64,000 nt of DNA from Isoetes taiwanensis. Lineage: Eukaryota > Streptophyta > Lycopodiopsida > Isoetales > Isoetaceae. The stretch is taken from positions 5,646,775 to 5,710,774 of the forward strand of contig JAJEKV010000013.1 of the NCBI GenBank assembly GCA_021234155.1, read 5' to 3'. Below, piece by piece: positions 5,989-61,155 of this stretch (position 1 is the first letter of the stretch; every line of letters begins with the position of its first letter). The notes under the pieces were generated by a model. The model did no database searches. It had not been told where the DNA came from and saw nothing but the letters and a program-made list of their open reading frames with translations. Position numbers and translations under genes: made by a program.

Positions 5989-6366
<378 letters not shown>

Positions 6367-9245: not shown

Positions 9246-9899
9246 TGACTATAAAATTGTGGCAGCAAGCATATTACTTGATGGGGTGTAAACCAAGTGC
9301 TGGATGGTCTACGAAAAAATTGGAACTTATCACTTTTAGTGCAGTAAAGCAAGAACTCCAAGACAAAAGCTTCAATTCAAGCTCAAGTCTTCCGCAGAGT
9401 CAATATATGCACATAGATAATTGGTCAATAACTAATTCATCCAACTCAAGTCCAGGTCAAATAGATGAAAATGGCTTACCTTTTACAGTCACATGAACCT
9501 TGGCTGCATCCAGATTTCATCCATTCACCCAGATTTCATCCATTCACGCTAATTCAGCATTAAGGACAATTGCCCATTAACGGCAAGCAAACCCACAAGC
9601 TTCTCCTGGGCCATGAAATTTTTTCTGAATTTGTGCTCACTTATGGTTCCAAATTAGATAGACACGGCATGCACTAAGAACCTTATGGTAATCCACACGA
9701 GGATAATTTTAGAATTTTTCTCACCATGAGATGTAAAGAAACATTAGCAGCAAATCATCTAGCCACTAGCAGAATAAGAATGCCAATAAATCATCACCAT
9801 CAGAGCTTCAATCTAGGAGATACGTTCTGTGCTAATTTATCAAGAATATGATAGCAAACTAGTGTAATATCTGGCATTCTCATCATCCAAATTTAGATG

Positions 9900-14429: not shown

Positions 14430-15640
<1,211 letters not shown>

Positions 15641-38893: not shown

Positions 38894-39299
38894 CACTACA
38901 AAAAATTAAAGCCCCGGTTATTTATCGCCTATTACGACGCCCGTGACGCCGCTTAGACGCCGATGATCGACGCCAAAAAACGCCGACATAAACGACGCCT
39001 ATTTCGACGCTTCTGAAAGGCCGATAAAACCACCTTTATGCGCCGCTATACGCGGCCGCTAAACCGCTGGCGCCTTAAAGTTTACGACACCGGACGCCGT
39101 TCAACGACGCCACGCATTATCGCGGAGCCGCCACGCCGCCGCGCGGCCAAAGATGGCGCCGCATGAAGCGTAAGCCACGACGTGGGCGTGACGCGGTTTG
39201 ACGCCGCAACGACGCCACGCACACGCGGGCGTACCACGCTGACGGGCGCCGCGCCGGGCGCTAAAGCCAGTTGTCGACGCAGAAAGACTTAAACAACGC

Positions 39300-40441
39300 C
39301 GCTTTAACGACGTTGCTACGTGTATTTAAAAAAAAATTATTTTATTTTTTTATTTTTTTTTTAAATTGAAAAAAATAATAATAATACATTTATTATTAAT
39401 GAAGTTAATACATTTAATTTAAAGCCTATAAAATGAATTTAACCAATAAAGAAATATAAGATTTTAACGTCATTAAATGATGTCGCTTAAATATATTAAA
39501 AAAATACAAAAATAAATGAAGCCCCAATTTTTTTAGCTAAATACATTAATCAATAAATTAAGCTAAATACATTAATCAATACATTAAGCATATTGAAAAT
39601 TAAATGCTTACCTGGTACAAGGTGGCAAAGTTGTTTTGCACAAACAACGCATTTGCTAGGAGTGTACATGCAAAACAATAAATTCAATGATTAGTAAAAT
39701 ATTAGTATAAATAAACAACTTAAAGGAAAAAAAATATGGAAAATCAATGGGGGAGGGGTGGTTTCAATGACGTCCCCTTCTTGGATAACAATTTAACCTA
39801 AATAAAGCATTAGTATTTTATTAGCGTATTGAAAAAACTAAATCCTTACCTGGAAGAGGTGCCAACTTGTTTTGCAAGAACAACACATTTTGCTAGGAGT
39901 GTACATGCAAAACAAAAAATTCAATGATTAGAAAGAAATAGTATAAAACAACTAATAAGGAAAAATTTTGGAAAGAAGAAGGGTCTCGTCTTTTAACGAC
40001 GTCTTCTTAGATGGGAAAAAAATTAGAAGAAGAATGGAAGAATTCCGAAGAAGAAAAGGCTAAGAAGAAGAGGAGGAACCCGAAAATGGGGAGGAAGAAT
40101 ACGAAGAAGATGGAGCGCAAGAGGAGGATTAAGAGTAAGAATTTGAATAAGAGGAGGAAGTAGTGGTATAAGAGGAGGAAGAATCGAAGAAGAAGATGAC
40201 AAAGGGAATGGAAGAATATGTTATGGAAGATATGGAAGAAGGATGCAAGAATGGAAGAAGAAGAATGAAGGTTGAAGGAAGAACAAACAACAAATACAAA
40301 AAGCCCTAAATCTACCCAAAAACAAGTTTAGATTCAAAAAACGAGTTGGTTGATCCGTGCACATACCTTATGAAGCTTGTCTTACACTTAGAATAGACCC
40401 CAAAGTAGATCCGCGCCGAAAATCGCCTCAAAAAATGCTCC
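39300..40441 (-). other. Possible small spliced transcript unit inside the CACTA element
   Basis: On the minus strand an ATG near 40,441 begins MEEHFLRRFSARIYFGVYSK and is followed by a splice-donor-like CATAAG|GTATGTGC near 40,366. Two similar exon-like blocks of ~145 bp at 39,846-39,990 and 39,606-39,750 each end in CCAG|GTAAG. The region 40,020-40,300 is purine-rich on the plus strand. It could be the relic of a CACTA-encoded gene; no family is recognised. Confidence 0.3.
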
Positions 40442-40629
40442 TCCATAAGCTTTGCTTGCTCGAAAATAAGCGGCGGGATTGCCGCCTGTTTTCGATTTAA
40501 ATCACAGGTCGTCGTTTAACGACGTCGTGACGTCGTTGAACGACGACAAAAAACGTCGTTGAACGACGTTTGTAACGACGTTTTTTTTTGACGACCAAAA
40601 AAAAAAAAAAATTTTTTTTTTTTTTTTAA

Positions 40630-41030
40630 ATAGTATAGAATGCATGTACACTTGATACATGGGTTTATTTAACTGGATAGGGGTTTATTTGACTTGCTAC
40701 ACCCGTTAAAGTTATGAAATATACCACCATAAAAATGTTCAATGTTTTGTGGTACATCCGTTGAGCTATGAGGTATATAATACGATGATGATAACTAGTA
40801 ATACCTTACCTGCTACGATAACTAATACCTTACCAACATGCAAAGATGTAGTTTATCTTAAAATTTTATTTTGTTAGATTTAAAAAGGTTAGGTTTCCAC
40901 CAATAGTATATGTAGCTACGTGTTCGCTTGTTACGACGACATATATATATATATATATATATTTATTTTTTTAATTTTGTCCCCTGCTATGAGAACTTAT
41001 ACCCTACCAACATGCGAAGATGTAGTTTAT
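40630..41030. other. AT-rich segment before the satellite array
   Basis: Contains a duplicated ~40-bp block (CCAACATGC.AAGATGTAGTTTATC at about 40,830 and 40,998) and a TA run near 40,943. Nothing coding is seen. Confidence 0.5.
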
Positions 41031-44000
41031 CTCAACAAGCTAGCTGACTTAGGAAGCTAGCTGACAAAAAATCAGAATTTAAGTCCGGTACTATGCATTA
41101 ATTACAATTTCACGAATGTCTTGCTACTTTGCGGCGGGCCTTGACTTCTAACCGCCACAACGGAGGAGTACAAAACTCCATTCCGCCGGTTCCGCTTGCT
41201 TCGCGTTCTCAATCGCATGTGATTGGCCACGCCCCAAAGCGCCAAAAGACCAAAACTTCGGCACCCAAAACGCAAACCCCTCGCTAGAACCCGGCAACTC
41301 ATAGGGTTTACGTTTGAGGCTCTATGCTTGTCGATTTGACTAGGACCTTTTGGGCGTGTCTTGGCGTAGGGGGTGTTGACGCCGAAAGCACGGACCCTAA
41401 AACCACCCACGAAGCGGCTTTGCCCCCAAAAGTCCTCTCCTGAAGGCCCCGGGCGACCGGACGCGCAACTTCCCCTCTCCCGAACCGTGATCCGCCTCTC
41501 GCCAATGGACTCCCGAACGTCAACATTGCCCTAGGGACCAAGTTTTGTGGCCGTAAGCCCACCCTTCTCGAAGAAGCGCCAAACTATCTCATGTGCAACG
41601 ACTCGTGAGTCAATTGGCCTAGGAGGTGGGCTGGCCAATCTTTAAATGTAGGGCGTAGTGTTTCTTTCTTTTTGCAAAACCGACCGTGTAACTTGGTCCA
41701 TAGGATAATTTTGGCATTCCCGGACGATGTGGCAAAGTCGGATCGGCATTTGAAGCCTCGCAATGTCCCAACGACAAAACACTTTGGTTTCTACAATGTC
41801 GCCGCGGGGCGCTTGCGGTTTGATATGTTCTCCTGGACGGATGTTGGATTTTTGACCTTCTCGACCAGGTTCCCGGAACAAAGGATTCAACGGTGGGGAT
41901 ACGGGAACCGAGATCCGGAGTGTGGTCTTTAGCGTCGCCCGGCGGGGCCATGAGCCGCCGAGAAAGGCTGCCTCGAAGCTTTTGGGGCTCGCCTCACGGG
42001 TTCGGACTCTCCCCTCTAATGAAGAGGCCTTGCAAGGTCCCTGGCCTTGTTTGACTTGGGCAAGTGTGCCCATTTCGGTACTCCAACAACAAAGCCGCCC
42101 GGACCGTTCTAGTGCAAACTATTTGATCTAAACCATATCAAAATTTTTGAAAGTTGGCTGTATGTTGGCGATGACTTAGGAAGCTAGGCGACAAAAAATC
42201 AGAATTTAAGTCCGTTACTATGCATTAATTACGAATTCTGAATGTCTTGCTAACGCAAAAGCGGCCCTTGACTTCTAACCGCCACAACGGGAGGAGTACA
42301 GTCCAAACTCCATTCCGTCGGTTCCTTGCTTTGGCGTTCTTCAACTGCATGTGATCGCCCACGTCCCAAGTGCAAAAGACCAAAACTTCGTCACCCAAAA
42401 ACGCAAACCCTGCTGGAACACGGCAACTCATAGGGTTTCGTTTGAGGCTCTATCCTTGTCGGTTTGACTAGGATCTTGCCGCCGTGTCTTGAGGTAGAGG
42501 GGGGTGTTGACGCGCAGCACGGACCCTAAAACCACCCGGAAGCGGCTTGCCCCAAAATTCCTCTCCCGAAGGCCACAGCGACGGACGGGCAACTTCCCCT
42601 CAGGAATACCGATGTCTGCTCCCAATGGACTCCAACGTCGACATTGCCCTAGGGGACCAAGTTTTGTGGCGGGAAGCCCACTCCTTCTCGAAGAAGCGCC
42701 AAACTATCTCATGTGCAACACACTCGTAGTCAATTGGCCTAGGAGGTGGGCAATTTGAATCTTGCAATGTAGGGCGTAAGTGTTTCTTTCTTTTTGCAAA
42801 ACGGCCGTGGTAACTTGGTCCCTAGGGTAATTTTGGCATTCCGACGATGTATGAAGTCGGATCGGCATTTCGAAGCCTCCCGCAATGTCCCAACGACAAA
42901 ACACTTTGGTTTCTACTTTAATCGCCCCGCAGACGCCTTCGGTTTGATATGTTCTCCCGGACGGATGTTGGATTTTTTGGACCTTCTCGACCGTGTTCCC
43001 GGAACAAAGGATTCAACGGTCGGATCTGATACGGAACAAGCAGGGGTCTTTAGCGTCGCGCCGCGGGCCGCCGCCAGAAAGGCTGCCTCGGGAAGCTTTT
43101 TTGGGCTCGCCTCCCGGGTTGGACTCTCCCTCTAATGAAGAGGCCTTGCAAGGTCCCGCCTTGTTTGACTTGGGCAAGTGTGTGCCTATTTCTACCCAAC
43201 AACAGTCTGCCTCTGACCGTTCTAGTGCAAACTATTTGATCTAAACCATATCCAAAATTTTTTGAAAGTTGGCGTATGTTGGCGATGACTTAGGAAGCTA
43301 GGCGACAAAAATCAGAATTTAAGTCCGTACTATGCATTAATTACGAATTTACGAATGTCTTGCTACTCTGCAAAAGCGGCCCTTGACTTCTAACCGCCAC
43401 AACGGGAGGAGTGCAGTCCAAACTCCATTCCGCTCCGCCTCTTGCTTCGCGTTCTCAACTGCATGTGATCGGCCACGCCCCAAGTGCAAAGACCAAAACT
43501 TCGTCACCCAAAACGCAAACCCCGCTAGAACCCGGCAACTCATAGGGTTTACGTTTGGAGGCTCTATCCTTGTCGGTTGGACTAGGATCTTGCGCCGTCT
43601 TGAGGTAGAGGGGGTGTTGACGCCATGGCACGGACCCTAAAACCACCCGGAAGCTTTGCCCCAAAATTCCTCTCCGGCTGCCCCGCGACGGACGGGCAAC
43701 TTCCCCTCTCCCGGCGTGATGATGCGATCCGCCAATGGACTCAGAACGTCGACATTGCCCTAGGGACCAAGTTTTGTGGCGAAGCCCACCCCTTCTCGAA
43801 GAAGCGCCAAACTATCTCATGTGCAACACACTCGTGAGTCAACTGGCCTAGGAGGTGGTCTGCTGAATCTTTAAATGTAGGGCGTAAGTGTTTCTTTCTT
43901 TTGCAAACCGACCGTAACTTGGTCCCTAGGGTAATTTTGGCATTCCCACGATGTGGCGAAGTCGGATCGGCATTTGAACCTCGCAATGTCCGAACGACAA

Positions 44001-47000
44001 AACACTTTGGTTTCTACAATCGCCGCCGCGGACGCCAGCGTTTGATATGTTCTCCGGACGGATGTTGGATTTTTTGGACCTTCTCGGACCAGGTTCCTGG
44101 AACAAAGGATTCAACTGGCCGGATACGAACCGAGATCCGGGAGTGTGGTCTTTAGCGCGTCGCCCCCGTGCGGCGCCGAGAAAAAGGCTGCCTCGGGAAG
44201 CTTTTGGGGCTCGCCTCACGGGGTTCGGACTCTCCCCTCTAATGAGGAGGCCTTTGCACGGTCCTGGCCTTGTTTGACTTGGGCAAGTGTGCCCGGCTTC
44301 TTTGCCCAACAACGGCTGCCTTGGACCGTTCTAGTGCAAACTATTTGATCTAAACCATATCCAAAATTTTTGAAAGTTGGCTATGTTGGCGATGACTTAG
44401 GAAGCTAGGCGACAAAAATCAGAATTTAAGTCCGTACTATGCATTAATTACGAATTTACGAGAATGTCTTGCTACTGCGCAAAAGCGGCCCTTGACTTCT
44501 AAGCGCCACAACGGGAGGAGTACAGGTCCAAACTCCATTCCGCCCGATTCCGCTTGCCCGGCGTTCTCAACTGCATGTGATGGCCACGCCCCAAGTGCAA
44601 AAGACCAAAACTTCGGCACCCAAAACGCCAAACCCCCGCTAGAACACGGCAACTCATAGGGTTTACGTTTGAGGCTCTCTCTTGTCGGTTTGACTAGGAC
44701 CTTTGCGCCGTGTCTTGAGGTAGAGGGGGTGTTGGCCGGGCACGGACCCTAAAACCACCCGAAGCAGCTTGCCCCAAAATTCCTCTCCGGCGGCCCGGGG
44801 CGACGACGGGCAACTTCCCTCTCCCGGGCAAGTGATCTGTCTCTGCCAATGGACCTAACGTCGACATTGCCCTAGGGACCAAGTTTTGTGGCCGAAGCCC
44901 ACCCCTTCTCGAGAAGAAGCCAAACTATCTCATGTGCAACACACTCGTAGTCAATTGGCCTAGGAGGTGGCTGCTGAATCTTTGCAATGTAGGGCGTAAG
45001 TGTTTCTTTCTTTGCAAAACCGACCGTGTAACTTGGTCCCTAGGGTAATTTTGGCATTCCGGACGATGTGGCGGTCGGATCGGCATTTGAGCCTCGCAAT
45101 GTCCGAACGACAAAACACTTTGGTTTCTACACTGTCGCCGCGACGCCAAGGTTTGATATGTTCTCCTGGACCGAATGTTGGATTTTTGGACCTTCTCGGA
45201 CCAGGTTCCCGGAACAAAGGATTCAACGGCCGGATACGGAACCGAGATCCGGGAGTGTGGTCTTTAGCGTCGCCCCCCGGCGGAGCGCTGCCGAGTAAAA
45301 GGCTGCCTCGAAAGCTTTTGGGGCTCGCCTCACGGGTTCGGACTCTCCCCTCTAATGAGGAGGCCTTGCACGTCCTCGGCCTTGTTTGACTTGGGCAAGT
45401 GTGTGCGGCTTCGGCTGCCCAACAACAGTTTGCCTTTGACCGCTCTAGTGCAAACTATTTGATCTAAAACCATATCCAAAATTTTTGAAAGTTGGCCTGT
45501 ATGTTGGCGATGACTTAGGAAGCTAGGACAAAAAATCAGAATTTAAGTCCGCATTACATGCATTAATTACTTAATTTACGAATGTCTTGCTACCGCAAAA
45601 GCGGCCCTTGACTTCTAACCGCCACAACGGAGGAGTACAGGTCCAAACTCCATTCCGCCGTTACGCTTGCTTCGCGTTCTCAATCTGCATGTGATCGGCC
45701 ACGTCCCAAGTGCAAAAAGACCAAAACTTCGGCACCCAAAACGCAAAACCCCGCTAGAACCCGCAACTCATAGGGTTTACGTTTGAGGCTCTATCCTTGT
45801 CGATTTGACTAGGACCTTGCCAGCCGTCTTGAGGTAGAGGGGGGTGTTGACGCCGCAGCACGGACCCTAAAACCACCCGAAGCGGCTTGCCCCAAAATTC
45901 CTCTCCCGGCGGCCACGGCGACGGACGGGCAACTTCCCTCTCGGAACAGTGATGCGTCTCCGCCAATGGACTCAGAGCGTCGACATTGCCCTAGGGACCA
46001 AGTTTTTGTGGCCGAGCCCACCCTTCTCGGAAAGCGCAAACTATCTCATGTGCAACACACTCGTAGTCAATTGGCCTAGGAGGTGGGCTGGCGAATCGCA
46101 ATGTAGGGCGTAAGTGTTTCTTTCTTTTGCAAACCGGCCGGTGTAACTTGGTCCCTAGGATAATTTTGGCATTCCGTGACGATGTGGCGGTCGGATCGGC
46201 ATTTCGAACCTCCTCCGCAATGTCCGAACGACAAAACACTTTGGTTTCTACACTCGCCGCCGCAGGCGCTTCAAGGGTTTGATATGTTCTCCTGACGGAT
46301 GTTGGATTTTTTGGACCTTCTCGACCAGGTTCCTGGAACAAAGGATTCAACGGTCGGATACGGAACCGGATCCTGGAAGTGTGGTCTTTAGCGTACACCC
46401 CGGGCGGGCGCTGCCGAAAAAGGCCTCGGGGAAGCTTTTTGGGGCTCGCCTCTGGGGTTGGACTCTCCCTCTAATGAGGAGGCCTTGCAAGGTCCCGGCA
46501 TTGTTTGACTTGGGCAAGTGTGCCATTCGGTACCCAACAACAGCTGCCCTGACCGTTCTAGTGCAAACTATTTGATCTAAACCTTATCCAAAATTTTTGA
46601 AAGTTGGCCCTGTATGTTGGCGATGACTTAGGAAGCTAGCCGACAAAAAATCAGAATTTAAGTCCGTACTATGCATTAATTAGGAATTTACGAATGTCTT
46701 ACTCTTGCAAAAGCGGCCCTTGACTTCTAACCGCCTGGCGGGGGAGTATGCGTCCAAACTCCATTCCGTCCGGTTCCCCTTGCTTCAAGCGTTCTCAACT
46801 GCATGTGATCGGCCACGTCCCAAGTGCAAAAGACCAAAACTTCGACACCCAAAACGCAAAACCCTGCTAGAACCCGGCAACTCATAGGGTTTACGTTTGG
46901 GAGGCTCTATCCTTGTCGATTTGACTAGGACCCTTGCCGTGTCTTGAGGTAGAGGGGGTGTTGGCGCTTGAGCACGGACCCTAAAACCACCCGAAGCGGC

Positions 47001-47305
47001 TTGCCCCAAAATTCCTCTCCGAAGGCCACAGCGACGGACGCAACTTCCCTCTCTCCTAACCGTGATCTATCTCTGCCAATGGACTCAGAACGTCAACATT
47101 GCCCTAGGGACCAAGTTTTGTGGCCAGAAGCCCACCCCTTCTCGAAGAAGCGCCAAACTATCTCATGTGCAACACACTCGTAGTCAATTGGTCTAGGAGG
47201 TGGCTGCTGAATACTGCAATGTAGGGCGTAAGTGTGTCGTTTTTTTGTAAAACTGACCGTGTAACTTAGTCCATAGGGTAATTTTGGCATTCCAAACGAT
47301 AAGCG
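41030..47305. repeat. Satellite array, monomer ~1.11 kb, about 5.6 copies
   Basis: The landmark GACTTAGGAAGCTAG recurs at 41,045, 42,173, 43,287, 44,394, 45,512 and 46,625, giving periods of 1,128, 1,114, 1,107, 1,118 and 1,113 bp. The last copy is cut off near 47,305. Each monomer contains CCTAGGGACCAAGTTTTGTG, ACAAAACACTTTGGTTTCTA and TTGTTTGACTTGGGCAAGTG. The many open frames, on both strands, are not shared intact between monomers, so no protein is supported. Monomers differ mostly by small indels in CpG-rich spots. Confidence 0.95.
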
Positions 47306-47312
47306 ACGTCAG

Positions 47313-47318
<6 letters not shown>

Positions 47319-47350
<32 letters not shown>

Positions 47351-47372
47351 AAAAAAAAAAAAAAAAAAAAAA
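47319..47372. repeat. T29-ACC-A22 homopolymer junction
   Basis: A run of 29 T, then ACC, then 22 A separates the satellite array from the RT-unit array. At the corresponding place in the later units there are only seven or eight A before CCCCC. It may be a retrotransposition scar, a recombination junction or an assembly join. Confidence 0.85.
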
Positions 47373-47376
47373 CCCC

Positions 47377-48947
47377 AGTCTGAAATAAACAAGTCCAAGA
47401 CTAGCTATCCAGACTCTTAAGACTAGTCATCCCATTTGGAAAGAAAAGTCTATACACGAGCAACCCTAGATAGATCATGGTGCAAAACCCATCTAGGCCT
47501 TGAGAAGGGTATAAGAAGAATGTAGTATTAGACATAAACGATAAAGACAGGAACAAAGTACCATAAAACCAACCTAGGCAAAACATAGTACAAGAGAAAT
47601 GAAGAAGAATTTCAAAAGGAAAATAGAAAGGTAAAAAGAGAGACAATAGATAAAAAATGTATCAAGCCTAAGACAAAATAAAAGAGAGAAAGGTAAGGAC
47701 GAAAGTAGGCCAGAAATGAAAAGTAAAAAATAAGGAAACAAAGGAGATAGAACACAGAATAAGCAAGAAAAAAAAAAAAAAAAAATTAATAAATGTAGAT
47801 AATAAAGGGAAAGAAACATAATAGAAGATAGAGAAAAGAGAAACATAAACCTCAAAAAATAAAGTACAATAAAAACAACCAAGGTAAAAACATATTACAA
47901 GAAAGAAGAAGAAGAATTTCAAAAGGAAAACAGAAAGGTAACAAGAGAATAAAAGAAACAAGACTAAGATAAAAATAAAAAAGAGAAAGGAAAGGACGAA
48001 AGTAGGCCAGAAATGAAAGGTAAAAAAATAAAGAAACAAAGGAAATAGAACATAGAATAAGCAAGAAAAGAAAAATGTAGAGAATAAAGGGAAAGGAACA
48101 TAATAAAAGATAAAGAAAAGAGAAACATAAACCTCACATAACAGGAAATGAAGGTAGAAATATTTTTTATAGAAAGTATAATGCCAAGATGAAATAACAG
48201 AGTATAATTCAAGACAGAAATATAAAGAGAAGTATATCTTAACATATGAATTTCACCACAAAAAGAGAACTATGAAAATAAGTCTTCTTAAACCCGAGTA
48301 TGTAGAATATCACCAATAGAGTTTCAGCAAAAACATTCTAGCAACACCATATATAGTTGAATCCAGCAGAAAACAGCACCAACAGTGCCCGAAACATACC
48401 AAGCCAAAGCATGGAGGGTTTAGTCCGGTTACCTGCACCACAAGACATTAAACAAGCATTAGAATGGTTGTTAATATCTGGGTAGCAGGTAAGCAATGGA
48501 CTAAAGCCGGCTTATCGCCCTTCACCATAAGAACTTAGTACATATGTAATAGGTCAGAGAAATACAGCAGCAGTTAACAAGGAAATTACACAAAACATGA
48601 AAAAGTGGAACCGGAAAAATTACAAGAGTATGAGTTCAAAAGAGATAGCAAAGAAGGAATAAGAAGACAAGAACTGAAATCAGAAATCAGAAGGAATAAG
48701 AAATCAGAACTGAAAAGAGAAGACAAGGATCAAGAAAACAAAAATTGATAAAGGAAAAACCAGGAAACAAAGATACTTTAAGCAATCAGAAGAATGAAAA
48801 TCAACTGAGCTTACAAAAGGAACAAGTCAAAAAAAGTTAAGAAATTAGAGAAGTCAATACAGCAAGAAATTTAGAGTTCAGAATGTTAAATGGCCAGATT
48901 AAAGAGGTCAGGGCAAAAGATATGAAGATAAACATTACTACAATCAA
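47377..48947 (-). other. Intron-1-like region of unit A with internal ~306-bp duplication
   Basis: It follows the exon 1 splice donor at 48,949 and is pyrimidine-rich on the minus strand. It contains a tandem duplication of ~306 bp (starts about 47,558 and 47,864; shared landmark GGACGAAAGTAGGCC). In unit A it is cut off at the homopolymer junction, so this exon 1 has no downstream exon. The equivalent regions in units B and C run on into exon 2. Confidence 0.6.
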
Positions 48948-48949
48948 AC

Positions 48950-49273
48950 CTGAGATGGATCGACAGCAGGGACACTTGATCTAAGTTGAGCAACCTCAGG
49001 GATAGAAGGAACAGCAGAATCCAGCAAAACCTCAGGAGCAACCGCCATTTGCGCACCAACAACAGGATCTATCAGTTTATGTATAGAGAGATGTGCAGCC
49101 ACCCCAGAGCTGGCTTCACCTTCAGGTTCAGGAAATAGATTGGTAGCAGGGGCATTCCTGGCCTTAGCAGGTTTGTGAAAAACAAAAGCACTCTTCCTTT
49201 TCTCTGCCATCCTTCTTTCTTCCTGTAACTTAAGAATGGTGGCCTTGTTCAAGCTACCTTTCCTTCTTCCCAT
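48950..49273 (-). CDS. RT-unit exon 1 (unit A), AT-hook-like N-terminus
   Basis: The ATG at 49,273 starts MGRRKGSLNKATILKLQEER, a GRRKGS AT-hook-like basic motif followed by a charged helix (EERRMAEKRK), then a Pro/Ala-rich stretch ending DPSQ. The frame is also open upstream to 49,603, but that part is hydrophobic and Trp-rich, looks non-coding, and has no basic motif. A phase-0 splice donor CAG|GTTTGA follows DPSQ at 48,950, and stop TGA comes two codons later if unspliced. The matching phase-0 acceptor is the one before exon 2 in the other units. The product would be the N-terminus of the RT-unit protein, perhaps a DNA-binding part. No downstream exon exists for this copy. Confidence 0.5.
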
Positions 49274-49800
49274 AAACCAAAACACACCAGGAGCAAAGGG
49301 AAAACCAGCGCCAACAGACAGGTAGGAGGACTTCCAACAAAGAAAAATGGGGCTTAAATACTCACAGTAGCAGAACCATGTGCTTTGGTAGATGAAGATC
49401 CAGCCATTCAGCTCATAACCATAAATCTGCCAGCAATCGACAGCCCAAGGGCTTAACCAGACGTCACCGTCCATCCTGAGTCGTAAGGCAATGGCGCACA
49501 CCCAAAATAACCTAACTGGTTCGGGAGTGGAAAGATAGAAAGGAAATCGAAAAAAATAATAACAAGGGATAAATGGCTTAAAAAGGTAAAAAACCTTAAT
49601 CATACAATAAGTAAATAAGGGTAAAGCTAGGGAAAGACCAACGTTTCTAAAAACTAGGTCCAGACACTAAAAAGACATGGATTAAACATAAAAGATGGAG
49701 ACGAAACAAGGGAAATTAAAGTACTAAAGAGAAGAACATAAAAAAACCTTCCTCCTACCACAGCTTGGGAGGTCCCTAAACGTCAAACAGACAAAGAATA

Positions 49801-49831
49801 TTGCAACAGGGAGGGCAGGGCCCTGTTGCAA
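49801..49831 (-). promoter_or_regulatory. Perfect 11-bp hairpin just 3' of the RT frame
   Basis: TTGCAACAGGG and CCCTGTTGCAA flank a nine-base loop, 70-100 bases after the RT stop on the minus strand. The same hairpin is present in unit B at 56,360-56,390. It could be an RNA structure recognised by the RT, a processing signal or a terminator-like element; its role is an inference. Confidence 0.45.
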
Positions 49832-49899
49832 CACAGGGACCCTACCCAACCCGTATCTAATATAAAAAGAACAAACCGGGACAAAGCTATAAAAAGGAC

Positions 49900-51947
49900 T
49901 TACAGCATATTTCTGAGAATACGAGACATATCATCAATGTCGAAAGGTAATCCTGGAAAGTTGTTAAACTTGAGAGTTTTCAGGACAATTCTGATGATAT
50001 CTTTCTTCAGAAACCCATTGTTGCAAAAAGCACAAATGAGGTCAAAAATGTCTTCAGCTGCGGCTAGGGAACAGGAATGTGCATAAACAAAGGGTAAAAT
50101 CTGAGAAATAATGACCTTAGAAGCCTGGCCATAAGGTCTACATCCAGCGGCCTTGATGAATCTATTAACTTTGAAGTTTAACTTCCTCCTTTTGTCATAT
50201 CTGGAGTACTGGAACAGGCCATTGTTTGGGTCCAGCACATGGATGGAAACATTAAGAAAATTAATAGTGGAACCCAATCTGCAATCCTTTCTGTACACAG
50301 TTTCATCTTTTATCCCCAAAAGGTTCATATTGTAGATAGTACACTCTGAATCAAGAGAAAAGAAGGGACGGAGATCACCACCATTAATTATAGAAAGATC
50401 ATCAATGTACCTTGAAGAGTGCTGGAACCTAGCAATATCTTTGAATCTGTTTAGCTTTGCAAGCCTAGAAATGAACCTAAGTTCAAACAGGCTAGATACA
50501 AGTTGCACCAGGCAGGACTGCTCGAAAAGCCCATGGGGATACCCTTCTTTTGTCTCCAAATCTGAGAGCCCATTTGGAGAAAGCAATGTGAAAGTAGCCA
50601 ACTGTTAATTTTGCAGAACTCCTGTTTTGAAACCACCCAGCCAGCTGATGATCCCTCAATAAATTTTCTCCATTTGACCTTATAAGAACCAGCAAAGCTA
50701 GTCACAACCAATTTAGTCAGGGGAGCCTTATGGGACATATAATCCCATACAAGAAAAGCCACATCATTTATAATTTCAATAATACCCTCATGTCCCTCAA
50801 GAGGAATATTTTCGTAGCATTTAGTAATATCGATGGAGAACACATCAAAAATCTTGGAGGGCAGATTAAGGACAAAGTCAAATGAAGAATTGATAAGCCA
50901 GCAGGGATTAACCTTATTTCCCATCCAAAGTCTAATTTCAGCTGTGTTCCAATGACAAACAGTAGGCCACAGTTCCACAAAATTATTCAAAATAGCAGTG
51001 GTCAAATCCGAAATTTCCGTATAAATGGTTCCATGGGCATTAGTCAGCCATCTATATTCACCCTTGTGGGCTTTAAAGATTCCCATGAGATAAGGTAATC
51101 TATTGCTATGAGGTAACTGAAGACCACAGAAGCTAGAAATATCAAAGGCACATTTTGCTTTAATATCAGAAGGACAAGTTGAAATGATCTCAAAGTCAGG
51201 ACTAGAAAGTCTGGTGAAAGCCATTTCCCTAATGTGGAACTGGCATATAAAGGAGGGATTGTTGCCAGCCTTGTCAACCTCAGAAATGTATAAGTTTTTT
51301 AACAACCATAACAAATTTTTCCTCACATTACCATCATCCCATAAGAACCTTTTATGATCCAGGCTTTTCTTGAAAACAGAAATTCTGACTTTAGCAAGGT
51401 TAAACAATTTGTCTTTAATGGACAAAACCTCCAGCTCAGAGAGATGTAAAAGGCTGTACTGATGTAAGGAAAAGAACTGCTCAATAGTGGCTCTGAAGTC
51501 AAGTAAGAACTTATCAACAGAAAGATCCCCATCCGGTATATGATTCAGCCCAAAAGATAAAGCAATCCTAAGCTTAGGACAATGTATAATCTCCAAATCC
51601 ATGGTACGGATATGGCCAATGGCTGGGTCCACAAAACGAGCCAAACTTGGGTTTTTGCAAGGACATTTTTTTGGAAAACCATCAGCAAACACTTCAAAAG
51701 GCTTGTACAATTTATCCCTTAGCTGATCCATGTACCTCCATCCAAAAAGAGTACTATCTAAGAGATCATTGGCAATAAGAGGAAGAGAATCCGACAAGAC
51801 TTCTTTAAAGATGTCCCTGATTTTAAACCTTTCCAAAGACTTGGAAAAGAAAGTGGAGTGTACCACTTTACACTTGGCCGAATTTCTGGTAGAGATCAAA
51901 TGTCTTTTACCATTGCAGTCCTTCAATATAGATCTTGAGATGTGATC
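49900..51947 (-). pseudogene. Reverse transcriptase, Penelope-like or related family (unit A exon 3)
   Basis: The frame 51,926-50,451 carries GHIRTMDLEIIH (residues 104-115), VDKAGNNPSFICQF (217-230), LMGIFKAHKGEYRWLTNAHG (280-299), motif A FSIDITKCYENIPL (363-376) and motif B KGIPMGFSSSPAWCNLYL (461-478). The frame 50,601-49,900 continues with FELRFISRL, motif C SRYIDDLSIING, INFLNVSIHV, RYDKRRKLNF and IISQILPFVYAHS, ending ILRNML. The catalytic Asp residues (motif A D, motif C DD) are all present. A one-base shift near 50,487 separates motifs B and C. This layout is that of Penelope-like or related invertebrate RTs, as I recall them, not L1, Gypsy or Copia. No GIY-YIG or other endonuclease is seen. 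Confidence 0.8.
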
Positions 51948-52273
51948 CTAAAAAAAAAGGTTTAGATGGACTTCAGAAATATGAAAAAAGGTAAAAGTGG
52001 ACTTCAGATAACGAGAAAGGTGAAAAACTAAAAAGCATAAACACAGAGGAGCCATAAGTGTCCAAAAGCCAATTAAGGCAAATAAAGGATAAGTAAGTAA
52101 ACCAAAGGAATAAAAGTTTTTTTGGAAATATAAATCACTCCAAGGGAAAACTCTTTGCATAAAAACCCTTGGAGGATTTAGGAAAGTGGAGCGAGTATAT
52201 GTTAGAAGATATGACACACAAGTACATAGTAGTAAGAAGACAGAATAAAAAGACATAACAAATATAGACTAAC

Positions 52274-53820
52274 CTTGTGATATCCGTATAGTTCAATTTG
52301 GTAGCATCCATCTCATCCAAGTTAATCACCTTGTTGCCTCCTTTAGTAACAGAGTATTCGTCACTGGAAAGAAGATTGTCAACCTGTTTTGGTTGCTTAA
52401 TTACAGCCACATTGCTGCCAGCAGAAAGTCTAGGATCCAAAGTAACTCTGGGAGGTCGTTTAGGTGAAAAAAAGGTTGACGAGATATTACTGTTGGAGCT
52501 TTCCCTCCTTTGAAGAGTTGCTTTCTTTTTAGCCATTTGTTCCTCACGAAAAGCCACAGGCCTAAGAGTCTTCTCAGCAATATCAGCCAATTTTGTATTG
52601 CCAAAAGCAGCTTTGAGATCACTGTTAGGAGCTTCTGCATAAAATAGGGTCATATTGATGAAGACTTTTCTGACCTCCAGGTAAGAGAGGTATGCAAGAA
52701 TTGCTGGCTTGAGAACAATATGCAGCATTTTAGTAAGTCCAACCATCTTAGCTAAAGGGGAAGCACCAGGAAAAACCAAATCCAAGTGGTTGAGAATATA
52801 CCAGACCGCCTGATCAATCCAAACAATGCCACTCCTGCATTCAGACTTATCATTTTTCTTAGCATCCTTCTCACAAGCACATGTCAGGAAAGGACAATGT
52901 GTCCTCCAGAGTTTTTTTAAGAAGAAAGCATCCCTTTTGTCATTGGAATAGGCCATATTGCCTTTTTGACTAACATGAAGAGCAGTATTGAAGAGGCAAG
53001 GTTGGCCAAAGAAGTCTGACTTGAAAGGTAACGAAACCTCTGTTTTGGTAAAATACTTGTCAAGTTTAGAAGCTTTTGCAGTGGCAGACCTGATTTCATC
53101 ATCTGTAATACCTGTCAAAGCCTTCCAAGTATCAACATTAATGGGTGCCAAAGCACCAAAGTTCTGGCTTTTCCAAATTGCATGGTCCCATGCAACTGCA
53201 AAACACTCAACATTCTGTTCAGGGAGAATGGGAAATTTTGAGGAGTTTTGAAGAGTCAGGGTAGGTACCTCATCAGTGTCATCTGCATCATCCTTATCCG
53301 TGTCATTATTACCATCAAAGACCTCATCAACTAGGTCATCATCAGAAAAAAGGCAGTTTTTAACCCCACTATCCATGTAACCATCCGAAGTGGAATCAGG
53401 TAAAACATCCTTCTGTAGAGATGACTTCAGATCATGCACACTCTCCAAATGAGTAAGACCTATCAAAAACTTTTTTCCTAACTCATCTTCCGAGCAAGTC
53501 CTAGCAAAAAGCAGAGCTTCCATGTCTCCATAGATTTTAGAAATCAAAGTTTTACAGACCTCCAGCTTGTAGTTTGCAGTTTTCATCCTCTGGAAAGCTG
53601 AAAACCAGCCATTAAAGCCCAGGTAACTCACAGGAGATTTATTCTTATCAACCAGACTGCTTTCCTTAAAGATAATGAATTCATGCACATCCTTGTTCTT
53701 GATACACGCTATCAAAGTTTGTACAGCAAAGTTTGGACTCGAGATACCACATTGGTCATAGTTCAAGGCAATCAACTCCTTAATCCATGAATTGTTCATA
53801 TCAAGGTCATTAATATCAGC
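52274..53820 (-). CDS. RT-unit exon 2 (unit A), unknown ~515-residue region
   Basis: A long open frame that begins straight after a strong splice acceptor (TTTGTTCAG|GCTGAT at 53,821) and reads ADINDLDMNNSWIKEL. It ends near a donor CACAAG|GTTAGT at 52,274 (phase 2); if unspliced the frame stays open to 52,135. Features seen: an acidic low-complexity block (DDDLVDEVFDGNNDTDKDDA), a Cys-rich motif CPFLTCACEKDAKKNDKSEC, and a basic segment EEQMAKKKATLQRR. I recognise no family. It probably precedes the RT in one spliced product. An acceptor at 51,886 (CTACCAG|AAATTC) would keep the RT frame, whereas the better pyrimidine-rich acceptor at 51,948 would not. Confidence 0.55.
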
Positions 53821-55511
53821 CTGAACAAACAGCACAGAAAATCACATTATCAAAAAGAAAACAAGGAGCACCATAACCCCAAACAAGGTTTCAGGTTAAA
53901 CCTGAAAGTTGGAATAACATAAAAAAACCCCCAGTCTGAAATAAACAAGTCCAAGACTAGCTATCCAGACTCTTAAGACTAGTCATCCCATTTGGAAAGA
54001 AAAGTCTATACACGAGCAACCCTAGATAGATCATGGTGCAAAACCCATCTAGGCCTTGAGAAGGGTATAAGAAGAATGTAGTATTAGACATAAACGATAA
54101 AGACAGGAACAAAGTACCATAAAACCAACCTAGGCAAAACATAGTACAAGAGAAATGAAGAAGAATTTCAAAAGGAAAATAGAAAGGTAAAAAGAGAGAC
54201 AATAGATAAAAAATGTATCAAGCCTAAGACAAAATAAAAGAGAGAAAGGTAAGGACGAAAGTAGGCCAGAAATGAAAAGTAAAAAATAAGGAAACAAAGG
54301 AGATAGAACACAGAATAAGCAAGAAAAAAAAAAAAAAATTAATAAATGTAGATAATAAAGGGAAAGAAACATAATAGAAGATAGAGAAAAAGAGAAACAT
54401 AAACCTCAAAAATAAAAAATACAATAAAAAAAACCAAGGTAAAACATATTACAAGAAAGAAGAAGAAGAATTTCAAAAGGAAAACAGAAAGGTAACAAGA
54501 GAATAAAAGAAACAAGACTAAGATAAAAAAAAAAAAGAAAAGGAAAGGACGAAAGTAGGCCGTAAAATGAAAGGTAAAAAATAAAAGAAACAAAGGAAAT
54601 AGAACATAGAATAAGCAAGAAAAGAAAAATGTAGAGAATAAAGGAAAGGAACATAATAAAAGATAAAGAAAAGAGAAACATAAACCTCACATAACAGAAA
54701 TGAAGGTAGAAATATTTTTTATAGAAAGTATAATGCCAAGATGAAATAACAGTATAATTCAAGACGTAAATATAAAGAGAAGTATATCTTAACATATGAA
54801 TTTCACCACAAAAAGAGAACTATGAAAATAAGTCTTCTTAAACCCGAGTATGTAGAATATCACCAATAGAGTTTCAAAGAAAACATTCTAGCAACACCAT
54901 ATATAGTTGAATCCAGTGACGGCAGACCAACAAGGCCCTCAAACATACCAAGCCAAAGCATGGAGGGTTTAGTCCGGTTACCTGCACCACAAGACATTAA
55001 ACAAGCATTAGAATGGTTGTTAATACCTGGGTAGCAGGTAAGCAATGGACTAAAGCCGGCTTATCGCCCTTCACCATAAGAACTTAGTACATAAGTAATA
55101 GGTCAGAGAAATACAGCAGCATTTAACAAGGAAATTACACAAAACATGAAAAAAGTGGAACCGGAAAAATTACAAGAGTATGAGTTCAAAAGAGATAGCA
55201 AAGAAGGAATAAGAAGACAAGAAATAAAATCGAAAATCGAAAAGAAATAAAAAAGGAATAAGAAATCAGAACTGAAAAGAGAAGACAAGGATCAAGAAAA
55301 CAAAAATTGATAAAGGAAAAACCAGGAAACAAAGATACTTTAAGCAATCAGAAGAATGAAAATCAACTGAGCTTACAAAAGGAACAAGTCAAAAAAAGTT
55401 AAGAAATTAGAGAAGTCAATACAGCAAGAAATTTAGAGTTCAGAATGTTAAATGGCCAGATTAAAGAGGTCAGGGCAAAAGATATGAAGATAAACATTAC
55501 TACAATCAAAC

Positions 55512-55832
55512 CTGAGATGGATCGACAGCAGGGACACTTGATCTAAGTTGAGCAACCTCAGGGATAGAAGGAACAGCAGAATCCAGCAAAACCTCAGGAG
55601 CAACCGCCATTTGCGCACCAACAAATGATCTATCGGTTTATGTATAGAGATGTGCAGCCACCCCTGTAGCTTCTTCACCTTCAGGTTCAGGAAATAGATT
55701 GGTAGCAGGGGCATTCCTGGCCTTAGCAGGTTTGTGAAAAACAAAAGCACTCTTCCTTTTCTCTGCCATCCTTCTTTCTTCCTGTAACTTAAGAATGGTG
55801 GCCTTGTTCAAGCTACCTTTCCTTCTTCCCAT
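55512..55832 (-). pseudogene. RT-unit exon 1 (unit B), frameshifted
   Basis: Same as the exon at 48,950-49,273, starting MGRRKGSLNK, but a small indel cluster near 55,625-55,670 changes the frame after EPEGE and stops it. The donor CAG|GT is retained at 55,512. This exon lies 1.69 kb upstream, on the minus strand, of the exon 2 acceptor of unit A (53,821), so it would be its natural 5' partner. Confidence 0.6.
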
Positions 55833-56458
55833 AAACCAAAACACACCAGGAGCAAAGGGAAAACCAGCGCCAACAGACAGGTAGGAGGACTTCCAACAAA
55901 GAAAAATGGGGCTTAAATACTCACAGTAGCAGAACCATGTGCTTTGGTAGATGAAGATCCAGCCATTCAGCTCATAACCATAAATCTGCCAGCAATCGAC
56001 AGCCCAAGGGCTTAACCAGACGTCACCGTCCATCCTGAGTCGTAAGGCAATGGCGCACACCCAAAATAACCTAACTGGTTCGGGAGTGGAAAGATAGAAA
56101 GGAAATCGAAAAAAATAATAACAAGGGATAAATGGCTTAAAAAGGTAAAAAACCTTAATCATACAATAAGTAAATAAGGGTAAAGCTAGGGAAAGACCAA
56201 CGTTTCTAAAAACTAGGTCCAGACACTAAAAAGACATGGATTAAACATAAAAGATGGAGACGAAACAAGGGAAATTAAAGTACTAAAGAGAAGAACATAA
56301 AAAAACCTTCCTCCTACCACAGCTTGGGAGGTCCCTAAACGTCAAACAGACAAAGAATATTGCAACAGGGAGGGCAGGGCCCTGTTGCAACACAGGGACC
56401 CTACCCAACCCGTATCTAATATAAAAAGAACAAACCGGGACAAAGCTATAAAAAGGAC

Positions 56459-58116
56459 TTACAGCATATTTCTGAGAATACGAGACATATCATCAATGTC
56501 GAAAGGTAATCCTGGAAAGTTGTTAAACTTGAGAGTTTTCAGGACAATTCTGATGATATCTTTCTTCAGAAACCCATTGTTGCAAAAAGCACAAATGAGG
56601 TCAAAAATGTCTTCAGCTGCGGCTAGGGAACAGGAATGTGCATAAACAAAGGGTAAAATCTGAGAAATAATGACCTTAGAAGCCTGGCCATAAGGTCTAC
56701 ATCCAGCGGCCTTGATGAATCTATTAACTTTGAAGTTTAACTCTGGGAGGTCGTTTAGGTGAAAAAAAGGTTGACGAGATATTACTGTTGGAGCTTTCCC
56801 TCCTTTGAAGAGTTGCTTTCTTTTTAGCCATTTGTTCCTCACGAAAAGCCACAGGCCTAAGAGTCTTCTCAGCAATATCAGCCAATTTTGTATTGCCAAA
56901 AGCAGCTTTGAGATCACTGTTAGGAGCTTCTGCATAAAATAGGGTCATATTGATGAAGACTTTTCTGACCTCCAGGTAAGAGAGGTATGCAAGAATTGCT
57001 GGCTTGAGAACAATATGCAGCATTTTAGTAAGTCCAACCATCTTAGCTAAAGGGGAAGCACCAGGAAAAACCAAATCCAAGTGGTTGAGAATATACCAGA
57101 CCGCCTGATCAATCCAAACAATGCCACTCCTGCATTCAGACTTATCATTTTTCTTAGCATCCTTCTCACAAGCACATGTCAGGAAAGGACAATGTGTCCT
57201 CCAGAGTTTTTTTAAGAAGAAAGCATCCCTTTTGTCATTGGAATAGGCCATATTGCCTTTTTGACTAACATGAAGAGCAGTATTGAAGAGGCAAGGTTGG
57301 CCAAAGAAGTCTGACTTGAAAGGTAACGAAACCTCTGTTTTGGTAAAATACTTGTCAAGTTTAGAAGCTTTTGCAGTGGCAGACCTGATTTCATCATCTG
57401 TAATACCTGTCAAAGCCTTCCAAGTATCAACATTAATGGGTGCCAAAGCACCAAAGTTCTGGCTTTTCCAAATTGCATGGTCCCATGCAACTGCAAAACA
57501 CTCAACATTCTGTTCAGGGAGAATGGGAAATTTTGAGGAGTTTTGAAGAGTCAGGGTAGGTACCTCATCGATCATCATCTGCATCATCCTTATCCGTGTC
57601 ATTATTACCATCAAAGACCTCATCAACTAGGTCATCATCAGAAAAAAGGCAGTTTTTAACCCCACTATCCATGTAACCATCCGAAGTGGAATCAGGTAAA
57701 ACATCCTTCTGTAGAGATGACTTCAGATCATGCACACTCTCCAAATGAGTAAGACCTATCAAAAACTTTTTTCCTAACTCATCTTCCGAGCAAGTCCTAG
57801 CAAAAAGCAGAGCTTCCATGTCTCCATAGATTTTAGAAATCAAAGTTTTACAGACCTCCAGCTTGTAGTTTGCAGTTTTCATCCTCTGGAAAGCTGAAAA
57901 CCAGCCATTAAAGCCCAGGTAACTCACAGGAGATTTATTCTTATCAACCAGACTGCTTTCCTTAAAGATAATGAATTCATGCACATCCTTGTTCTTGATA
58001 CACGCTATCAAAGTTTGTACAGCAAAGTTTGGACTCGAGATACCACATTGGTCATAGTTCAAGGCAATCAACTCCTTAATCCATGAATTGTTCATATCAA
58101 GGTCATTAATATCAGC
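56459..58116 (-). pseudogene. RT-unit exon 2 fused to RT tail (unit B)
   Basis: Starts after the same acceptor (exon from 58,116) and matches unit A exon 2 until about 56,745. A deletion of about 2.26 kb then joins it to the last part of the RT (LNFKVNRFIKAAGCRPYGQA ... ILRNML). The breakpoint lies at a shared TAACT. RT motifs A to C are lost, but one frame (56,935-56,459) reads through the fusion. A second lesion near 57,570 shifts the frame in the acidic block. Confidence 0.85.
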
Positions 58117-59805
58117 CTGAACAAACCAGCACAGAAAATCACATTATCAAAAAGAAAACAAGGAGCACCATAACCCCAAACAAGGTTTCAGGTTAAACCT
58201 GAAAGTTGGAATAACATAAAAAAACCCCCAGTCTGAAATAAACAAGTCCAAGACTAGCTATCCAGACTCTTAAGACTAGTCATCCCATTTGGAAAGAAAA
58301 GTCTATACACGAGCAACCCTAGATAGATCATGGTGCAAAACCCATCTAGGCCTTGAGAAGGGTATAAGAAGAATGTAGTATTAGACATAAACGATAAAGA
58401 TAGGAACAAAGTACCATAAAACCAACCTAGGCAAAACATAGTACAAGAGAAATGAAGAAGAATTTCAAAAGGAAAATAGAAAGGTAAAAAGAGAGACAAT
58501 AGATAAAAAATGTATCAAGCCTAAGACAAAATAAAAGAGAGAAAGGTAAGGACGAAAGTAGGCCAGAAATGAAAAGTAAAAAATAAGGAAACAAAGGAGA
58601 TAGAACACAGAATAAGCAAGAAAAAAAAAAAAAAAAAAATTAATAAATGTAGATAATAAAGGGAAAGAAACATAATAGAAGATAGAGAAAAGAGAAACAT
58701 AAACCTCAAAAAATAAAGTACAATAAAAACAACCAAGGTAAAAACATATTACAAGAAAGAAGAAGAAGAATTTCAAAAGGAAAACAGAAAGGTAACAAGA
58801 GAATAAAAGAAACAAGACTAAGATAAAAATAAAAAAGAGAAAGGAAAGGACGAAAGTAGGCCAGAAATGAAAGGTAAAAAAATAAAGAAACAAAGGAAAT
58901 AGAACATAGAATAAGCAAGAAAAGAAAAATGTAGAGAATAAAGGGAAAGGAACATAATAAAAGATAAAGAAAAGAGAAACATAAACCTCACATAACAGGA
59001 AATGAAGGTAGAAATATTTTTTATAGAAAGTATAATGCCAAGATGAAATAACAGAGTATAATTCAAGACAGAAATATAAAGAGAAGTATATCTTAACATA
59101 TGAATTTCACCACAAAAAGAGAACTATGAAAATAAGTCTTCTTAAACCCGAGTATGTAGAATATCACCAATAGAGTTTCAGCAAAAACATTCTAGCAACA
59201 CCATATATAGTTGAATCCAGCAGAAAACAGCACCAACAGTGCCCCCGAAACATACCAAGCCAAAGCATGGAGGGTTTAGTCCGGTTACCTGCACCACAAG
59301 ACATTAAACAAGCATTAGAATGGTTGTTAATACCTGGGTAGCAGGTAAGCAATGGACTAAAGCCAGCTTATCGCCCTTCACCATAAGAACTTAGTACATA
59401 TGTAATAGGTCAGAGAAATACAGCAGCAGTTAACAAGGAAATTACACAAAACATGAAAAAGTGGAACCGGAAAAATTACAAGAGTATGAGTTCAAAAGAG
59501 ATAGCAAAGAAGGAATAAGAAGACAAGAACTGAAATCAGAAATCAGAAGGAATAAGAAATCAGAACTGAAAAGAGAAGACAAGGATCAAGAAAACAAAAA
59601 TTGATAAAGGAAAAACCAGGAAACAAAGATACTTTAAGCAATCAGAAGAATGAAAATCAACTGAGCTTACAAAAGGAACAAGTCAAAAAAAGTTAAGAAA
59701 TTAGAGAAGTCAATACAGCAAGAAATTTAGAGTTCAGAATGTTAAATGGCCAGATTAAAGAGGTCAGGGCAAAAGATATGAAGATAAACATTACTACAAT
59801 CAAAC

Positions 59806-60132
59806 CTGAGATGGATCGACAGCAGGGACACTTGATCTAAGTTGAGCAACCTCGTGGATAGAAGGAACAATGAGAATCCAAAGAAAACCTCAGAGCAACC
59901 GCCATTTGGCGCACCAACAACAGGATCTATCAGTTTATGTATAGAGAGATGTGCAGCCACCCCAGAGCTGGCTTCACCTTCAGGTTCAGGAAATAGATTG
60001 GTAGCAGGGGCATTCCTGGCCTTAGCAGGTTTGTGAAAAACAAAAGCACTCTTCCTTTTCTCTGCCATCCTTCTTTCTTCCCCGTAACTTAAGAATGGTG
60101 GCCTTGTTCAAGCTACCTTTCCTTCTTCCCAT
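59806..60132 (-). pseudogene. RT-unit exon 1 (unit C), frameshifted
   Basis: Starts MGRRKGSLNKATILKL, but an extra base near 60,080 shifts it to RGRKKDG. Further small changes occur near 59,850-59,900. The donor position at 59,806 is conserved. Upstream, on the minus strand, the unit is cut at about 60,606 by an A18 run. Confidence 0.6.
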
Positions 60133-60624
60133 AAACCAAAACACACCAGGAGCAAAGGGAAAACCAGCGCCAACAGACAGGTAGGAGGACTTCCAACAAA
60201 GAAAAATGGGGCTTAAATACTCACAGTAGCAGAACCATGTGCTTTGGTAGATGAAGATCCAGCCATTCAGCTCATAACCATAAATCACAAGAATCGATCA
60301 AAATTTCCCAAAGGGCTTAACCGGGCGTCCACCGTCCATCCCGAGTCGTATAGGCAATGGCGACACCCAAAAATAACCTAACCGGTTCGGGAGTGGAAAG
60401 ATAGAAAGGAAATCGAAAAAAATAATAACAAGGGATAAATGGCTTAAAAAGGTAAAAAACCTTAATCATACAATAAGTAAATAAGGGTAAAGCTAGGGAA
60501 AGACCAACGTTTCTAAAAACTAGGTCCAGACACTAAAAAAGACATGGATTAAACATAAAAGATGGAGACGAAACAAGGGAAATTAAAGTACTAAAGAGAA
60601 GAACATAAAAAAAAAAAAAAAAAA

Positions 60625-61155
60625 GACGTCGTTAAACGACGTTGCTTACGCGGGCTTCTGGCGACAATAGCGTGGCCGGACGATGCCGCCCACGCCGGCA
60701 AAACCGCCGCCACGCCGATATTCTGGCGCCGTTTAACGGCGCCACGCCGACGCGGTGACACTTTGGCGTGCCGCATGTCGGCAAACCCACGAAATTGACC
60801 GGTCACGCCGTCATTTTTTAGTCGTCGCTCAACGGCGTCATGTCGACGCGGGCGAGAACATGGTGGCGTGCCGGCCCGCATGTCGGCAAACCACGGCCCC
60901 GGATGTGCCACGTCGGATCCATCAGGCGGCGGCGTTAAACGACGTTTTGTGCACGTGGCACGACACGCACGCTTGCCAGCTTGGCAGCAGTACCATGCCA
61001 CGCAGGCCAATCCGACACGTCAGCCCTGAGAAACGTCGTTGAACGACGTCGAAACGACGTTGTCGTCGTTGAACGACGATGTCGTCGATATTCGACGACG
61101 ACCCGTCGTTCTTCGACGTCGCGACGTCGTTGGACGTCGACTATCCCTTGTAGTG
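60625..61155. repeat. Right subterminal array of the CACTA element
   Basis: Dense GACGTC, ACGACG and CGTCGTTGAACGACG motifs, many of them self-complementary, ending in the terminal GTAGTG. Such arrays bind the CACTA DNA-binding protein in known elements. The same motif family at 40,500-40,600 lies on the far side of the 20-kb interior. Confidence 0.75.

Follow-up and report, generated by a model that had tools for sequence, protein, structure and literature searches.

Telomerase and Penelope-like elements (PLEs) are believed to descend from a common ancestor, and many PLE clades carry a hammerhead ribozyme in their pseudo-long terminal repeats (pLTRs). Within the PLEs, a CxC motif is said to define the Naiad/Chlamys clade, whose members have an N-terminal endonuclease, and Gladyshev and Arkhipova reportedly described endonuclease-lacking (EN-) PLEs in 2007. 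The accessible parts of two papers (PMC9033089 and PMC12477314) mention EN- PLEs from Selaginella, pine, and spruce, and for rotifer Penelope the accessible text of PMC3846280 proposes an antisense template on account of the introns. In this study, we analyzed a 64,000-nucleotide stretch of the genome of the quillwort Isoetes taiwanensis (contig JAJEKV010000013.1, positions 5,646,775 to 5,710,774; hereafter the window), which holds an array of reverse transcriptase (RT) elements between the ends of a presumed CACTA transposon. On the strength of sequence comparisons and a structural model, we consider it probable that the array belongs to a multicopy, endonuclease-lacking, Penelope-like family of a lycophyte that has repeats resembling long terminal repeats (LTRs) and inserts into A/T-tracts. 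One element has the form R-O-R, in which R is a pLTR containing exon 1 and an RNA hairpin and O is a coding block containing exons 2 and 3.

The array occupies the minus strand from 60606 to 47373 with the layout R-Odel-R-O-R, and the sequence bears out both end points given by an earlier annotation made from the letters of the window alone (the original prediction). The three direct repeats are 97 to 98% identical to one another and lie at 58225..60606 (copy a, 2382 bp), 53928..56298 (copy b, 2371 bp), and 47373..49739 (copy c, 2367 bp). A full-length coding block O (49747..53920) separates copies b and c. Between copies a and b lies Odel (56306..58217), in which an internal deletion of ~2.26 kb has removed the RT core, giving a unit spacing of 4297 versus 6556 and leaving open reading frames at 56459-56935 and 57565-58095. 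The tandem RT array that had been predicted therefore stands as a set of head-to-tail repeats but not as three RT units, since there are three R copies, two coding blocks, and a single RT core. Within O, exon 2 (52274..53820) encodes a 515-residue domain with no recognized fold, intron 2 (51934..52273, 340 bp) has GT-AG ends and is in phase, and exon 3 (49900..51933) encodes the RT, which is broken by a frameshift between its GIPMG and YIDD motifs. Two hairpins mark the 3' end of O (49751..49847, with a second copy at 56310-56406) and are present in other copies of the family as well. The predicted AT-hook-like N-terminal exon was also found: exon 1 encodes 108 amino acids with the stretch MGRRKGSLNK (MGRRKGSLNKATILK) and is open in R copy c (48950..49273), while the further copies starting at 55832 in R copy b and 60132 in R copy a have interrupted frames. 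It is present in 15 aligned R copies, several of them with an interrupted frame. The inner junctions read GGGG-T(6-10) from R to O and AAGG(C)-T(6-7) from O to R. At the outer 5' end the array adjoins a run of 18 T (60607..60624) within a T-tract of the CACTA element, and at the outer 3' end a run of 22 T followed by GGTAAAA.., part of the same CACTA tract (47319..47372); other CACTA copies have this tract empty.

A search of the assembly with a piece of the RT gave at least 43 match rows, with 40 of 583 candidates scored. Chance or contamination was rejected because the family has many copies, spread over many contigs of this one assembly, which also disposes of the single-copy contamination that the original prediction had named as one of its refutations. 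We took 10-kb loci around 20 of the RT matches. RT frames of 680 to 684 amino acids are open in L009, L018, L020, L021, and L028, and a longer one is open in L011; in the remaining loci the frame is broken or not fully visible. Direct repeats measuring 2.3 kb or more, 95.4 to 99.2% identical, flank or separate coding blocks in half of the loci (10 of 20). Shorter ones occur in L017 (93% over 1.4 kb) and L009 (83.5% over 1.7 kb), and 8 of the 20 have no direct repeat of 1 kb or more. Across the family R measures 2.4 to 2.9 kb. Two other arrangements were seen among the copies. A cluster of RT copies at C1018:4469964-4599460, several of them ~6.7 kb apart, is probably an extended tandem array of this family. 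In L019 the 5' R is preceded upstream by a ~120-bp inverted copy of the 3' end of O (9526-9647); comparable inverted partial copies have been reported for Penelope.

In a tree built from 24 R copies belonging to 12 elements, all 11 elements with two or more copies have their own copies as sisters. From this sisterhood we suggest that R is renewed within each insertion or converted later. The same sister pairs are expected of an LTR-type cycle, in which the R copies would be true LTRs produced by strand transfers and the purine-rich GGTAGGAGGAAGG, which lies immediately 5' of the 3' R, would prime the second strand. We regard such a cycle as quite improbable: Pfam detected no RNase H, integrase, or protease in the three exons (the sole match worth naming was a weak RVT_1), R has T-runs at its ends and not TG..CA, tandem (R-O)n-R arrays occur, and the purine stretch resembles the 3' arm of a hairpin. 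Another explanation is that the arrays and paired R copies result mainly from unequal recombination and gene conversion after insertion and not from reverse transcription. The C1018 cluster, the deleted second block in the window, the R copies of L020 and L027, which intermix by identity, and the L009 repeats, only 83.5% alike, all point that way. We nevertheless consider it unlikely, given that sister R pairs in an R-O-R layout are the rule among the loci placed on the tree and that the T-runs at inner junctions keep to a narrow range of 6 to 10.

In all eight copies compared, a single shared GT-AG pair connects exons 2 and 3 and preserves the phase (other pairs also keep the frame), and a hidden Markov model profile of exon 2, searched against 120 proteins, most of them too short to hold the domain, matched two, from Chara (E 2.8e-17) and Selaginella (4.5e-5), in both cases N-terminal to the RT. 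The 515-residue region is therefore, as judged from these alignments, the N-terminal part of the RT protein; the original prediction rightly recognized the region but treated it as a neighbor of the RT, and the two are exons of one protein. The intron appears to be retained in the element, and its splicing is predicted from the site pair usable in each of the eight copies. Exon 2 gave no Pfam match worth naming, and a protein search found no homologue under a length limit that excluded the 949- to 1129-residue proteins of Selaginella and Chara. The ratio of nonsynonymous to synonymous substitution rates (dN/dS) is 0.07 to 0.16 for the RT among open copies (10 of 15 pairs computable) and 0.06 to 0.23 for exon 2 among other copies (9 of 15 pairs computable), with many dS values saturated. 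These low ratios indicate that both exons have been under purifying selection.

The predicted RT motifs DKA, KAHK, DITKCY, GIPMG..SP, YIDD, YDKR, and SQ were found. In a structural comparison made by re-ranking Foldseek's top 1000 chains, an AlphaFold2 model of the relative P0001 (predicted confidence, pLDDT, 90) had telomerases at ranks 1 to 16. The alignment to telomerase spans model residues 54-700, which take in the thumb and the stretch N-terminal of the RT, at ~10% sequence identity. By this model the RT is of the Penelope/telomerase type and related to telomerase, and the fold comparison speaks against its placement in a clade of long interspersed nuclear elements (LINEs) or LTR elements. 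A PDB search by sequence gave no convincing match. The RT profile matched an animal RT family across 597 columns; we take that family to be, very probably, the "Naiad" PLEs with an N-terminal endonuclease (Craig et al. 2021). A CxC precedes the RT in the quillwort proteins (cysteines 97 and 99 are nearly invariant in a 40-row alignment) and in the animal family too. The quillwort family is not filed in the Naiad/Chlamys clade because no N-terminal GIY-YIG domain was found: the exon 1, 2, and 3 sequences gave no Pfam match to it at E<=1, a scan that did not extend to other reading frames of R. RT relatives occur in Selaginella and Chara, and EN- PLEs are reported from Selaginella, pine, and spruce in the accessible text of PMC9033089, so the earlier description of such RTs as known mainly from invertebrates was too narrow.

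The relation of the array to the CACTA element was resolved by comparing insertion sites. The presumed outer element (38894..61155, no strand assigned, ~22 kb) begins with CACTACAA at 38894 and ends with TTGTAGTG at 61155, with CTC directly outside each end, as had been predicted, and the array sits between these ends. Only about 8 bp are common to both ends, so they are likely, but not certainly, parts of one element. The right end belongs to a repeat family, for which 40 of 707 candidates were scored. In ten of 12 other CACTA-end copies that were read, a T-tract is followed by at least one G and an A-rich tract, and the CACTA sequence of the window's other flank comes next, with no insertion; the exceptions are L037, which is without part of the tract, and L038, which passes from the A-tract into other sequence. 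In the window and in L024 (C1079), RT elements stand at the same position inside CACTA flanks. This shared position, together with the CTC common to both ends in the window, favors the cargo hypothesis of the original prediction, by which a CACTA element carries and moves the RT array as one unit. The flanks of these two loci are 82 to 95% alike, whereas their coding blocks are ~74% alike and the R of the window is at best 57% alike to that of any other element on the tree. Because the tract is empty in most of the CACTA copies read and the RT elements differ far more than the CACTA flanks, the array is a nested insertion in the CACTA T-tract. Cargo is further contradicted by four of the six elements for which both ends could be seen (L018, L019, L022, and L027), which have T-runs and, by eye, no such CACTA flank, and by the finding that among 40 scored CACTA and 40 scored RT matches only the window's own coincide. 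We hold it to be highly improbable and rejected it on the RT-free, uninterrupted sites. The original prediction's other suggestion, a PLE-type retroelement that tandemly colonized a CACTA element, agrees with the telomerase-like fold, the R-O-R and tandem structure, and the empty tracts. Such a case illustrates that a nested retroelement can be mistaken for transposon cargo.

T-runs border the outer ends found for the family. Of 19 R starts located by a T-free motif, 11 are inner junctions and 8 are outer ends, each of the latter beside a T-run of 9 to 28; all six outer 3' ends adjoin T-runs of 11 to 31, although there the search pattern itself demanded T. Three further observations concern these surroundings. 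The 3' flanks of L018, L022, and L027 have a T-run followed by GAAG, giving the impression, by eye only, of antisense LINE poly(A) tails. In L038 (C1030:9548489-9548889) the A-tract enters CCCCCTTAGTCCG..., perhaps another element in the same tract in opposite orientation. On its left side (window 41000-47300), the presumed CACTA element consists of at least five tandem copies of a GC-richer unit of ~1.11 kb.

R also contains a strongly conserved block (229 candidates, 40 scored), located in the window at 48416..48508, 54965-55057, and 59272-59364 on the minus strand. From the loci in hand we collected 45 different copies and analyzed 38 distinct cores. They fit an irregular hairpin of 95 nucleotides with 92% of cells paired, a figure favored by the derivation of the structure from one of the tested sequences. 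Both sides have changed at 9 of the 38 pairs; at seven of these nine the change comes from a single sequence, mostly the divergent L011, and at two from several sequences. Four of the inner pairs form in no more than 75% of the sequences. Folded alone, L011 takes the same shape with a different inner sequence, and folding z-scores range from -2.2 to -4.9 across the four copies folded. Rfam at E<=10 gave no convincing match to a known RNA family, for the hairpin or otherwise, in the window stretch and 6 of the 20 10-kb loci. The hairpin contains CAG|GTAA, a possible splice site inside a long first intron, and as a guess it could serve as the binding site of the RT.

These features suggest a tentative mechanism. 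An unspliced transcript would end in a U-tract after GGGG. This U-tract would pair with an A-tract of the genome that has been nicked, and synthesis across R, O, and R would be primed by the 3' end of that A-tract. The cDNA, which ends in A, could then either jump back onto the U-tract that terminates O, so that another O-R unit is added and arrays build up, or close on the target's T-strand. With the GIY-YIG nuclease missing, binding or nicking of the target may fall to the exon 2 domain and the AT-hook. If so, template jumping between T-tracts would rebuild LTR-like repeats of >2 kb at each insertion, entry into A/T-tracts would depend on an undescribed N-terminal domain and not on a known endonuclease, and the repeat would carry a new class of conserved structured RNA, perhaps an RT docking site like telomerase RNA; we consider this combination possible but doubtful. 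A serious rival, to which we give a real but minor chance, has the opposite template: an antisense RNA with its poly(A) at the R start, primed in LINE-like fashion by the T-strand of the target. All eight outer 5' ends found start with a T-run, as a copy of such a tail would, and an antisense template would account for the retained introns. However, the opposite end has a T-run too, and no AATAAA was seen by eye near the R-start end in the sequences inspected.

Several points weigh against the assignment to an endonuclease-lacking Penelope-like family whose repeats are renewed at insertion into A/T-tracts. No hammerhead ribozyme was detected by the Rfam search in the window stretch and the six loci covered, and the T-runs mask any target-site duplication. 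The fold class was read from re-ranked chains and from P0001, a relative 34% identical to the window's own RT, and the RT tree was made with the animal RT family, canonical PLEs and TERT not being in it. The saturated dS values bear on the evidence for selection. With respect to the repeats, L009 and L017 were left off the R tree, and the L009 pair (83.5%) does not look freshly renewed. By percent identity own-element pairing holds in 10 of 11 elements, the exception being L020, whose own pair is 94.4% alike versus 96.7% between L020 and L027. Gene conversion could likewise keep R pairs alike.

Other features of the window and the assembly lie apart from the array. An imperfect palindrome of ~3.1 kb (window 16360-19442) matches its reverse complement at 86% identity, and additional inverted copies lie at 15.8-16.3 and 19.8-20.5 kb. 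Long microsatellites, pure or almost so, occur at 2394-2503 (CT x55), 6071-6174 (AGAT x26), and 15085-15225 (CT x71). Fragments resembling matK were found in large contigs (L029, L030, and L031); the one in L029 is probably a plastid-to-nucleus transfer, since the sequence around it looks nonplastid. One matK-like fragment had a lycophyte-like appearance.

The quillwort family shows two hallmarks of PLEs, pLTRs and tandem arrangement. With the animal RT family it shares a full-length profile match, CxC, DKA.NN, KxHK, the motif A-B stretch, YDKR, and SQ. Two of four animal-type proteins have, by eye, upstream residues like the end of a GIY-YIG domain, whereas the quillwort family has the 515-residue domain instead, no GIY-YIG found, and repeats of 2.4 to 2.9 kb. 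Like the EN- PLEs, it has no endonuclease found, a lycophyte host, and a telomerase-like RT. In the accessible descriptions EN- PLEs are associated with telomeres, while the quillwort copies lie at internal A/T-tracts, telomeric copies not having been searched for. According to the accessible text of PMC3846280, rotifer Penelope has pLTRs, partial tandems, retained introns, and microhomology joins, as does the quillwort family, but its pLTRs measure ~0.2 kb and it encodes an endonuclease, in contrast to an R of >2.3 kb that holds exon 1. "Penelope" is absent from the main text of the genome papers of Isoetes taiwanensis (PMC8566536) and Isoetes sinensis, and a literature search combining "Penelope" with "Isoetes" returned nothing on the subject in titles and opening lines of abstracts. 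Set against the accessible published descriptions of EN- PLEs, four features of the quillwort family appear new: long LTR-like repeats that contain exon 1, the conserved hairpin, an exon 2 domain where an endonuclease would be expected, and insertion into A/T-tracts. Several copies have open RT frames, which makes template choice, RNA binding, and priming at A/T-tracts directly testable. Telomerase reverse transcriptase is alike in fold, with the thumb and the stretch N-terminal of the RT included, and differs in that the quillwort family is a multicopy mobile element with ~10% identity to it in structural alignments. As a lycophyte family with a telomerase-like RT, no recognized endonuclease, homopolymer targets, long LTR-like repeats, and a conserved hairpin in its RNA, it forms a link between target-primed elements, LTR-like architecture, and telomerase.

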